Assembly: GCA_022775905.1 (NCBI GenBank) | Contig: JALFJX010000034.1 | Coordinates: 1 to 39,356 of the forward strand | DNA length: 39,356 bases | Reading direction: 5' to 3' | Source of the DNA: Methanobrevibacter sp. | GTDB taxonomy: Archaea; Methanobacteriota; Methanobacteria; Methanobacteriales; Methanobacteriaceae | Shown here: positions 12,470-36,666 of the stretch, one piece after another | How positions within the stretch are numbered: the stretch's first letter is position 1 | Layout of the letters: every line of letters begins with the position of its first letter | Notes under the pieces: generated by a model | What the model saw: the letters and a program-made list of their open reading frames with translations, nothing else | Databases searched by the model: none | Told to the model about the DNA's origin: nothing | Position numbers and translations under genes: made by a program

Positions 12470-13147
12470 ATGAATTTTTTTAATAAAGATGAAATAGTTT
12501 ACAAAAGAATAATTCAATATGTTGTTGGACTGTTTATTATGAACATTGGAATTGCTTTTTCAATCAAATCCAATTTAGGTTCAACACCTGTTGTGACTGT
12601 GCCTTATGCGATTAGCCTAATAACCGGTTTTGATATCGGATATACTAATGCAGCATTCCAGGCATTTTTAGTATTGATAGAATTATTGCTTTTAAGAAGT
12701 GCATTTAAATCGAAACATTTCTTGCAAGTTTTCGTTGCAATACTGTTCAGCGCATTTACTTCCCTTTCATTGATTATATTGGGATTGTTCCTGCCTCCTG
12801 CTAACAGCATTATCCTTCAGATTCTCTTTTTGGTCTTGGGGATTGTCATTTTAGCATTTGGACTCTTCCTATATGTTCCTATGAATGTTGTGCCTGTATC
12901 AGTTGATGGTCTGACACAGACACTTGCTATTGTGGCTAACCAATCATTTGCAAAAACCAAAGTAGTATTTGATATATCTATGATAATTATTTCACTAATT
13001 ATATCATTTACATTTACAGGAACACTTGACGGAAGTGCGGGAATCGGAACAGTAATTGCAGCATTGTCAATTGGAACAACTGTAAAGATAATAAATATGA
13101 TTTATGCTAAAATAAGTGGTAAAGAAGCAGATATGAAGAAAATGTAG
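12470..13147 (+). CDS. YczE/DUF6198-like membrane protein, first copy
   Basis: A 225-residue integral membrane protein with about five to six hydrophobic segments. It begins with a basic cytoplasmic stretch and then a motif-like segment (GLFIMNIGIAFSIKSNLGSTPVVTVPYA). This Gly-Thr/Ser-Pro turn after the first helix is typical of YczE/YitT-like proteins (DUF6198). Their transport role is not established. A TATA-like TTTTTAAATATT lies about 30 bases before the ATG and no ribosome binding site is visible, so the mRNA is probably leaderless or nearly so. The stop overlaps the GTG of a paralogous gene by one base. Confidence 0.8.
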   Translation: MNFFNKDEIVYKRIIQYVVGLFIMNIGIAFSIKSNLGSTPVVTVPYAISLITGFDIGYTNAAFQAFLVLIELLLLRSAFKSKHFLQVFVAILFSAFTSLSLIILGLFLPPANSIILQILFLVLGIVILAFGLFLYVPMNVVPVSVDGLTQTLAIVANQSFAKTKVVFDISMIIISLIISFTFTGTLDGSAGIGTVIAALSIGTTVKIINMIYAKISGKEADMKKM

Positions 13148-33080: not shown

Positions 33081-33787
33081 TGTATATAGGTGGAACAGTT
33101 ATTTCTTCTGTTGAATTTCATGAAAATATTTCATTAGTTATTTTCATGTCTAAATGTCCTCTTGCGTGTAGATATTGTCATAATGTGGAACTTTTAGAAG
33201 ACAATACTGAATGGTCCTTTGATAAAGTAAAAGAGGAAATTGATTTTTCTGCTGACTTTTTGGATGCAGTTGTAATTTCCGGTGGAGAACCATTGGTACA
33301 AGTAGATGCAGTAATAGAAATATTAACTTATATCCGCCAAATTGGATTAAAAACAAAACTAGACACTAGCGGTATTTACCCAGACAATCTTAAAAAAATA
33401 TTGGATTTAGGTTTACTTGATTATGTTTCCCTTGATGTTAAAACAACCTTTTCTAAATATAAGAAAATCACAGGGGCGAATGTAGGTTTTCAAGTTAAAA
33501 AATCAATGGATCTAATAAATGATGCTGGAGTTCACTTAGAAGCAAGAACAACTTATGTTCCAACATTACATACTAAAAAAGACATTTATAATTTGGTAGA
33601 TGAAATAGACGCTGATATTTACACTATTCAACAGTTTAGAAATAAAAATGTATTAGACCCTGCTTTGGAAAAAGTAGATGTTCCAAATCCGCATGATTTG
33701 GAAAAATTAGCTCGTGAAATCAAACCATATTTTGATGGTATTGTTAAAGTTAAATCCGGAGAATTTGGAGAAAAAGTAATTGATTGA
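33080..33787 (+). CDS. Radical SAM protein, NrdG-like activase
   Basis: A 235-residue radical SAM enzyme. The [4Fe-4S] ligands are Cys26, Cys30 and Cys33 in CPLACRYC, followed by HN. VISGGEPLVQ is the SAM-binding GGE motif, and LDTSGIYPDNL and VSLDVKTTF follow. Methanogen homologues are usually annotated as anaerobic ribonucleotide reductase-activating proteins, but there is no nrdD nearby. The start overlaps hisC (TAATG), and its last bases overlap the region before the ASCH-TPR gene. The physiological target could be an unrelated glycyl radical enzyme, so NrdG is only the nearest label. Confidence 0.85.
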   Translation: MYIGGTVISSVEFHENISLVIFMSKCPLACRYCHNVELLEDNTEWSFDKVKEEIDFSADFLDAVVISGGEPLVQVDAVIEILTYIRQIGLKTKLDTSGIYPDNLKKILDLGLLDYVSLDVKTTFSKYKKITGANVGFQVKKSMDLINDAGVHLEARTTYVPTLHTKKDIYNLVDEIDADIYTIQQFRNKNVLDPALEKVDVPNPHDLEKLAREIKPYFDGIVKVKSGEFGEKVID

Positions 33788-33795
33788 GGTATATA

Positions 33796-34932
33796 ATGCC
33801 AATTTTGTCCTTTTCAAGTAATGATATTGATGTTATCACTGGTAAAAAAACTAGAACTATACGTAAAGCATGGAAAACTCCACTAAAAGTTGGAGATAGG
33901 CTTTATTGTTATTGGAACTTAGTATCAAAAGAAAAAATGAAAATTTTTGAAGCGTTTGTTACAAAGATAGAAGACATATCTTTTGATGAACTTGAAGGTA
34001 ATGATGAGTTGGCTCGCCAAGAAGGATTCAAAGATTCCAAAGACATGTTGAAGGAATTCAAGAAGATGTATGGTGGAAGAATTGACTCTTCTGAAAAATT
34101 CCAAATAATCTATTTTGAAAAAATTCATATTGATGATTGGAAAGGCGATAAAATCGATGAAAAGGCAATGATTTCCAAAAGGGCAGACATTTTGTTTGAC
34201 AGTGGAAAATTTGACAAGTCTGCCATGTGTTATGATGCTGCTTTAAGATTGGATCCTCATGATGTTTATTTGCTAAACAAACAGGGAGATAATTTATCCA
34301 GATTAGGTAGGTTTGAGGATGCTATTGAATGTTATGACAAGGCTTTAATGGTGGAGCCTGACAATATCTATATCTTAAATAACAAAGCTATTGCACTTTT
34401 AAACTCAGGAAACATTAATGAAGCATTAAAAGTAAGTAATATTGCTTATAATTATCGTCCAAGCAGTCCTGTTGTCCTTTATTGGAGAGGTTTTATTCTA
34501 GAGATGCTTGGAAGATATGATAATGCTTTAAGGGTGTATGATAAACTCATAGTTATTGATGGAGACAACCCTGAAGTATGGAACTCTCGTGGAAACCTGT
34601 TGACTGATATGGGAATGTTGGAAGAAGCAATTGAATCATTTGACAAAGCAGTTGAAGTCTGTTTGGATGATTCTGAAATGGATGCTGCTGCTATTAATAG
34701 AATGGGTAATGCTTACATTGATTTGGGAAAACTTGATGAAGCTTTGGATTGTTTCAATAAGGCTATCTCTTTAGAACCATACAATATTGATTTTTTACTC
34801 AATAAAGGAGTGGTTTTAATGGAACTTAGTAATTTTGAAGAAGCTATTGACAGTTTCAACAAAGTATTGCTTAGAAGTCCGGATAATGAAGATGCGTTTT
34901 TCCTAAAAGAAGAATGCTTGGAATATCTCTGA
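33796..34932 (+). CDS. ASCH domain fused to seven TPR repeats
   Basis: A 378-residue protein. Residues 1-~115 match the ASCH fold (MPILSFSSND.. with KKTRTIRKAW and KVGDRLYCYWN), predicted to bind RNA or act on modified nucleotides. From about residue 125 seven tetratricopeptide repeats follow: each is a 34-residue helix pair with (F)(D/E)..A(I/L)..(Y/F)(D/N)KA(L/V)....P.. endings, e.g. ..RFEDAIECYDKALMVEPDN. TPRs mediate protein binding. The ATG at 33796 is preferred over the upstream in-frame TTG because GAGGT then lies correctly. It follows the radical SAM gene by eight bases. Confidence 0.82.
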   Translation: MPILSFSSNDIDVITGKKTRTIRKAWKTPLKVGDRLYCYWNLVSKEKMKIFEAFVTKIEDISFDELEGNDELARQEGFKDSKDMLKEFKKMYGGRIDSSEKFQIIYFEKIHIDDWKGDKIDEKAMISKRADILFDSGKFDKSAMCYDAALRLDPHDVYLLNKQGDNLSRLGRFEDAIECYDKALMVEPDNIYILNNKAIALLNSGNINEALKVSNIAYNYRPSSPVVLYWRGFILEMLGRYDNALRVYDKLIVIDGDNPEVWNSRGNLLTDMGMLEEAIESFDKAVEVCLDDSEMDAAAINRMGNAYIDLGKLDEALDCFNKAISLEPYNIDFLLNKGVVLMELSNFEEAIDSFNKVLLRSPDNEDAFFLKEECLEYL

Positions 34933-34962
34933 CTTTGAATTTATTTTTTTTAAAATTTTGTT

Positions 34963-35009
34963 AACTAACAACCGTTAGTTTTATATTGTTTAACTAACAA
35001 TTGTTAGTT
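34963..35009 (+). promoter_or_regulatory. Two TetR operator palindromes flanking a TATA box
   Basis: AACTAACAACCGTTAGTT (34963-34980) and AACTAACAATTGTTAGTT (34992-35009) are 18-base palindromes sharing 16 of 18 positions; the second is perfect. TTTATATT (34980-34987) lies between them and 26 bases before ATG 35010, so transcription should start at the start codon. The second palindrome covers the start site. This layout fits autorepression by the TetR protein encoded next. Confidence 0.8.
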
Positions 35010-35627
35010 ATGGGAGAAAAAACTACTAAGGAAAAGATATTTGATGTATCATTGGAGTTGTTTTCACAAAAAGGATTTAACAACACTTCAGTCAGGGAAA
35101 TAGCTCGTGAAGTTGGAATCAAGGAAAGTTCTATTTATAATCATTATTCATCAAAACAGGCTATTATGAATGATATTCTAGGGACATTTTCTACTTATTT
35201 TGATAATGCTGGTGACGTTGGAAATCCTGGAATGGAAGCTCTCCTGGAATCAAATCCTACAATGTTTTATCAGATGGGTTCAAGGATCTTTAGGGAACAG
35301 TTGAGAAATGAAAAAATAATGAAGATTTTCAGATTCCTGTTTATTCAAATGTATCAGGATGAAAAAGTTGCCGAATTTTTCCATAAACATATATTGGAAG
35401 AACCATTGGAATTCTGGACTTCCATTTTTGTTAAATTCATTGAAATGGAGATTATTAAAGAAGACTGTGATCCGGTAATGTTGGCTAGGGAATATTATGC
35501 TTATCCGATATTTTTGTTGATGGAAATATTCATTGAGAATAACTCTTTTCCAGATGATGAATTGGATAAATTATTTAATGAAGCAGAAAAACATGTTGAA
35601 TTTATTTTTGATGCAGTGAGGGTTTGA
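35010..35627 (+). CDS. TetR/AcrR-family transcriptional regulator
   Basis: A 205-residue TetR-family regulator. Residues ~1-55 hold the helix-turn-helix: KEKIFDVSLELFSQKGFNNTSVREIAREVGIKESSIYNHYSSKQAI, with the Tyr-Asn/His-Tyr-Ser/Lys recognition end. The C-terminal part is a helical ligand-binding and dimerisation domain. Two palindromic operators and a TATA box lie just upstream. Translation is probably from a leaderless mRNA, as no ribosome binding site precedes the ATG; the in-frame TTG at 35001 lies inside the operator. The DUF116 gene starts one base after its stop, so its product is likely under the same control. Confidence 0.92.
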   Translation: MGEKTTKEKIFDVSLELFSQKGFNNTSVREIAREVGIKESSIYNHYSSKQAIMNDILGTFSTYFDNAGDVGNPGMEALLESNPTMFYQMGSRIFREQLRNEKIMKIFRFLFIQMYQDEKVAEFFHKHILEEPLEFWTSIFVKFIEMEIIKEDCDPVMLAREYYAYPIFLLMEIFIENNSFPDDELDKLFNEAEKHVEFIFDAVRV

Positions 35628-35628
35628 A

Positions 35629-36666
35629 ATGTCTGATTCATTATTTCCTTATCAAATTAAAGATAACTATTATGATGATGTTAATGATTTTGCAGAAGAA
35701 TTCATCAGTTTTGCAAGGGAATTAAATGTAGAAGATTTGTCTGAAATGTTGGAGGGATTGCTGATTGGCGTTTATTGGGAGATTTATAAGAATGATGCAA
35801 TGGTTCTATCTGAGAAGTCTCATAAAATTCTTGCAACATTGTCCAATAGAAGAAATGAGTCTAAAAAGAGCAAGGAACTAATTGATGATGTAAGGGGAAT
35901 GCTTCTTACAAAAGAATTTTCCAAAGAAAAGAATGGGGATGATTTAGAATTAAATAAATCTAATTTAAAAATATTGTTGGATTATTTGGAAGCTACTGGT
36001 GATTTCATATATCAATTGCCTTATTTAAAAAAGTATGAACATGAAATAACACCAGAAAAATTGGATTTGTTTCAGGAGTTGGCGACTTGGTTTTTACAAA
36101 ATTCATCAAAATACCTTGCTACATATACACTTGGATTTAAAGAATTTTTCAAAAATAATGAAATATCTCATAATTTAAAGGAAGATATAATATTTTTTAA
36201 TAGTCCTGAAGAGTTATATCATTTAAATATGCTTGGAGCTAATTTAATGAATAGAATTTTCAGACCAGATTTCCAATCAAGAAAAAGAAAAGTCTTGCTT
36301 TTACCATCATGTATGAAAATATCTAAAGATAAATGCAAAGCTGAAAATACACGATTGGGTCCTGTATGTAGATTATGCAATAAAAATTGCAATATATTTA
36401 AAATAGCTAAAGATTTCCCTCATGAATTATATTTGATAGAACATAATTCAGACTCTTTGAAGGGTGCAACAAAAAAAGATTTAGTAGAACTTGGAATAAT
36501 TGGAGTTACTTGCGTTTTAAATCTCATATCTGGTGGATATCAGGCAAGTAAAATTGGAATCCCTCCTCAATGTGTACTTCTAAATAGAGTTGCTTGCTCT
36601 AAACATTGGTTGAGTGAGGATTCACCATCAACAATTGATGTCCAAGAACTTTCAAAGAAAATTTAA
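35629..36666 (+). CDS. DUF116-domain protein
   Basis: A 345-residue protein. The N-terminal ~200 residues are helical with no recognised domain. The C-terminal ~140 residues match DUF116: VLLLPSCMKISKDKC, then GPVCRLCNKNCNIFKIAK, an SGGYQASKIGIPPQCVLLNRVACSKHW segment, all rich in conserved cysteines that could bind metal or a Fe-S cluster. DUF116 proteins are common in methanogens and of unknown function. It lies one base after the TetR gene. Its stop overlaps the stop of the convergent phosphohexomutase (TTAA shared at 36663-36666). Confidence 0.8.
   Translation: MSDSLFPYQIKDNYYDDVNDFAEEFISFARELNVEDLSEMLEGLLIGVYWEIYKNDAMVLSEKSHKILATLSNRRNESKKSKELIDDVRGMLLTKEFSKEKNGDDLELNKSNLKILLDYLEATGDFIYQLPYLKKYEHEITPEKLDLFQELATWFLQNSSKYLATYTLGFKEFFKNNEISHNLKEDIIFFNSPEELYHLNMLGANLMNRIFRPDFQSRKRKVLLLPSCMKISKDKCKAENTRLGPVCRLCNKNCNIFKIAKDFPHELYLIEHNSDSLKGATKKDLVELGIIGVTCVLNLISGGYQASKIGIPPQCVLLNRVACSKHWLSEDSPSTIDVQELSKKI

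Follow-up and report, generated by a model that had tools for sequence, protein, structure and literature searches.

The window, a 39,356-nucleotide stretch of DNA from Methanobrevibacter sp., carries a gene for a TetR-family regulator followed by a gene for a DUF116 protein. Two palindromic operators and a TATA box precede the regulator gene. The features of the locus are:

34963..34980, + strand: operator 1 (op1), AACTAACAACCGTTAGTT, covering the BRE position and the first TATA base
34980..34987, + strand: TATA box, the TATA-like octamer TTTATATT, at the consensus position in relatives
34992..35009, + strand: operator 2 (op2), AACTAACAATTGTTAGTT, a perfect palindrome abutting the ATG
35008..35012, + strand: predicted transcription start (leaderless), from the TATA centre plus 27 nt; no SD
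35010..35627, + strand: TetR-family regulator, 205 aa; PF00440 (TetR_N), E 4e-15; recognition helix IKESSIYNHY
35629..36666, + strand: DUF116 protein, 345 aa, with a Cys-rich C-terminal domain, second gene of the operon; PF01976, E 4e-18

The amino terminus of the regulator is a helix-turn-helix domain that matches PF00440 with 55.7 bits in a profile search (cut-off 24), and tetR is the single TetR_N gene of the 1.83-Mb genome. Its carboxyl-terminal part is kept in the alignment of relatives and matched no Pfam family in the profile search; no named NCBIfam subfamily scored above cut-off for the protein, and a literature search found nothing on this TetR. A TTG at 35001 was considered as an alternative start, and the alignment of relatives favours M1 at 35010. 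Staphylococcus IcaR (PDB 2zcm; E 2e-13) is among its closest solved relatives by sequence.

The ATG of the DUF116 gene at 35629 is separated by one base from the end of the tetR coding sequence at 35627, as the sequence-only reading had stated. The gene that follows (GlmM-like) lies on the opposite strand, and the operon is therefore read as tetR-DUF116. The adjacency of the two genes is kept in L012, L013, L017, L020, L021, L028, L072 and L074 and recurs in several lineages. The DUF116 protein matches PF01976 with 65.7 bits (cut-off 25), has eight Cys invariant in 12 relatives and, judged by eye, lacks membrane segments. Its family corresponds to arCOG02078, predicted to bind metal and featuring a CxxCxxC ferredoxin-like motif (PMC5898192). 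Its AlphaFold model (mean pLDDT 74) gave no PDB match at E<=0.001. The genome has two DUF116 genes, the window copy being the more divergent. The gene upstream of the operators (33784-34932) encodes a single protein with an ASCH domain and a series of TPR repeats.

Direct reading of the sequence shows that op1 and op2 are each an 18-bp inverted repeat with the shared pattern AACTAACNNNNGTTAGTT. They are identical at 16 of 18 positions and their centres are 29 bp apart. Both values agree with the earlier description of two 18-base palindromes, as does the perfect symmetry of op2; op1 departs from it, being an imperfect palindrome with 7 matching pairs out of 9 in the dyad. Counting the adjacent T and the A of the start codon, the palindromy of op2 reaches 20 bp (34991-35010). 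The earlier reading also placed a TATA box between the palindromes about 26 bases before the ATG and had the second palindrome touching the start codon. The octamer is indeed found there, its centre 26.5 bp 5' of the TetR ATG, and op2 ends at 35009 with the ATG starting at 35010. The first T of the TATA box is the last base of op1, so that the two elements share a single base. The BRE position is occupied by the right half of op1 (GTTAGT), which in our own reading bears a partial likeness to the archaeal BRE. The operators are thus located at the regulator's own core promoter.

The exact pattern occurs twice in the 1.83-Mb genome, both times at this tetR promoter. The search of the genome for the same palindrome elsewhere, which the earlier reading had proposed as a way to reveal a regulon, yielded no other site, whether exact or with 1 mismatch, and the next best operator-like site within the window matches at 11 of 14 positions. 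A multi-gene regulon of this TetR was rejected, the genome having no further operator at other promoters. Among 67 Methanobrevibacter-type genomes, 58 exact sites are present in 36 genomes, against one for the reversed operator pattern counted over the same genomes as a control of chance. All exact sites checked by script over the fetched loci (62/62) lie upstream of a TetR gene of this family, no farther than 200 bp away, and face it. Relatives include Methanobrevibacter millerae, thaueri and olleyae. In the phylum sample only three genera, all of the same family, have the sites; the 13 genomes from outside that family have none. Genome G144 from another genus of the family (g41) has five exact operator copies distributed over at least four contigs (C8, C116, C119 and C144), reflecting either real duplication or assembly redundancy.

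The layout was compared across 55 TetR genes that share the recognition helix; a pair of op1 and op2 could be resolved in 49 of these. The order op1-TATA-op2 is maintained in these 49 promoters, and the TATA box begins with base 18 of op1 (offset 17) in 44. Recurrence of the same layout in dozens of related archaea argues that the sites are real. The distance between the operators falls into classes of 29 bp (7 genes), 40-45 bp (27) and 47-54 bp (15). Helical phasing was considered as a rule for operator placement and rejected: spacings of 29, 43-44, 49-50 and 54 bp form two phase groups, so no single phasing rule applies. Position 10 is almost always C in op1 and T in op2 of the relatives, so the two are not interchangeable copies. 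In the close ortholog L013 op2 is degenerate. In G010 (L041; G010:C1 about 622600-624500) the orthologs of tetR and DUF116, beside the same GlmM neighbour, are both pseudogenes; the two operators and the TATA box carry mutations as well.

A sister subgroup of 40 TetR genes forms one clade in the tree (support 100/99). Its members (L014-L040 and others) have a different, single operator, TACCTAACGAACGGTAGGTA, between TATA and ATG, and their neighbours code for a radical SAM protein and/or DUF116. Only two positions of the recognition helix split the groups: E39 is found in 55/55 window-type genes and K39 in 40/40 sister genes, N44 in 54/55 and S44 in 40/40. The change of helix and operator probably happened as a single event on the tree, and the 55-versus-40 count is thus not a statistical sample. 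IcaR serves as a semi-independent check of the link between residue and operator. Like the sister subgroup, it has a lysine at the equivalent of position 39 (alignment with PDB 2zcm), and its operator is of the type ACCTA..TAGGT (PMC8019970).

We privilege the hypothesis, with a probability of about 0.82, that tetR-DUF116 is an autorepressed operon relieved by a ligand, TetR acting on op1 and op2 and the mRNA starting on the ATG. A TetR dimer on op1 would lie over the BRE position and the border of the TATA box, a dimer on op2 over the DNA from TATA to the start site, and the bound protein would block TBP, TFB and RNA polymerase at the tetR-DUF116 promoter. Binding of a ligand in the carboxyl-terminal pocket would release the repressor, and TetR and DUF116 would be made together until repression returns. 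That the switch is autoregulated, TetR shutting off its own two-gene operon, is very probable, and relief by a ligand is probable. The sequence-only reading had likewise proposed two flanking operators autorepressing tetR-DUF116, a proposal now strongly supported by comparative evidence: the conserved sites and geometry, the match of helix and operator, the joint decay in the pseudogene locus and the exclusivity of the sites to tetR promoters. Binding, repression, ligand release and start site are what we infer from these comparisons. The ligand may be related to the function of DUF116, as suggested earlier; a redox, stress or detoxification signal would be our guess.

The messenger of tetR is most likely leaderless, with a start predicted no more than about 2 nt from the first base of the start codon. 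In the msvR gene of Methanosarcina acetivorans the TATA centre lies 27 nt before the mapped start (PMC3729527); counting 27 nt from the TATA centre places the start of the window gene at 35010-35011, on the ATG. Transcription from about the A of the TetR ATG would then give a leaderless mRNA. No Shine-Dalgarno (SD) motif precedes tetR in the window. Among relatives with a predicted leader of about 0, an SD of at least 4 nt is found in 0/6, the window gene counted, and in 36/43 of those with longer leaders (Fisher p 1e-4, computed over genes that are related). Absence of the SD is not independent evidence, because in the short class that region is taken up by op2. L060 combines the 29-bp spacing with a 13-nt leader and GAGGT. 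Spacing and SD pattern agree with a leaderless message and support it indirectly. In a leader survey of a sample of window genes, at least two besides tetR look leaderless. The genes starting at 12470 and 16543 (+ strand) may be so, given that they lack an SD and that a TATA-like box precedes the ATG by 32-33 nt.

Autorepression might also operate on a leadered mRNA started from the A/T-rich stretch TTTAAAATTTT that is present upstream of op1 (about 34949-34959), the TATA box between the operators being incidental. Such an arrangement would conform to the 5' leaders inferred as general in methanogens (PMC3600222), but the stretch matches TATA poorly (5/8), and more distant relatives do not share it, whereas they do share the TATA box in op1 register; a leader starting there would likewise be without SD. 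We consider this unlikely. That the palindromes are chance repeats, the remnant of a mobile element or RNA hairpins rather than protein sites is hardly credible: the 62 checked sites all precede genes of this TetR family, the operator type follows two residues of the recognition helix, the sites decay along with the gene in G010, and a start on the ATG, as we favour, would leave op1 and op2 outside the transcript.

TetR could instead activate the operon, or both activate and repress it, or op1 and op2 could serve different ligand states. The consistent C versus T at position 10 does leave room for a difference in affinity or role between the two. Both operators overlap core promoter positions, however, where a bound protein normally blocks, and the TetR-family proteins studied are mostly repressors (PMC3511530), which makes an activating role very improbable. 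Within the preferred autorepression the step that is blocked could differ from the one proposed, since FadR of Sulfolobus acidocaldarius represses its own gene after TBP/TFB recruitment, from a site just downstream of the start (PMC6449355).

Switches of this general type are familiar; this one has a conserved TATA-fused operator. At about 30 bp, the centre-to-centre spacing of the tet operators is near the 29 bp found here. In the Tn10-type TetR/tetO system, too, a TetR-family repressor uses a pair of palindromic operators to control its own promoter (PMC3511530). That system differs in driving a divergent efflux pump, whereas tetR here forms a co-directional operon with DUF116, in an archaeal TATA/BRE promoter with a TATA-fused operator and no SD. 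MsvR of Methanothermobacter and Methanosarcina is likewise an autoregulator of methanogens with boxes overlapping BRE/TATA or the start; it blocks TBP/TFB binding in Methanothermobacter and its transcript is short or leaderless (PMC3729527). MsvR belongs to another regulator family with other DNA boxes, and the window has sites on both sides of TATA. FadR is an archaeal TetR-family repressor with an autoregulatory site too, but it controls a 30-kb cluster by way of four sites whereas the window has only two, flanking TATA (PMC6449355). IcaR resembles the sister methanogen subgroup in its IKK helix residue and ACCTA..TAGGT operator, the window TetR having an IKE helix and an AACTA operator; sequence similarity to the window protein is limited to the DNA-binding domain and the gene regulated is of another kind.

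Judged from sequence comparison, this is an ordinary type of switch with unusually clean comparative support, modestly interesting because operator and TATA are fused at a constant offset and the residues that set specificity can be pointed out. Tentatively, at somewhat below even odds, we view these loci as plug-in repressor cassettes of the Methanobacteriaceae. Each cassette would join TATA to a TetR operator at a constant offset, place a second operator at one of a few set distances and drive exchangeable cargo (DUF116, radical SAM plus DUF116, GNAT, GNAT-TetR fusion or FMN reductase). Recognition-helix residues 39 and 44 would have changed operator specificity in one branch; genes of the 29-bp class would have lost the leader. 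To our knowledge, few regulators have been characterised in this group of gut methanogens, for which the locus would provide a defined module of repressor, operator and promoter with predicted sites, start and specificity residues. The cognate ligand, if found, would be a first lead on this DUF116 branch, and the tetR promoter could become an inducible tool for methanogen genetics.

Other TetR relatives adjoin genes for GNAT acetyltransferases or FMN reductases. In 12 of the relatives TetR and GNAT are fused in one ORF (L051, L075, L078, L166, L169, L174, L176, L177, L178, L183, L184 and L191), with AACTAAC-type operators upstream and an FMN-reductase-like gene next.
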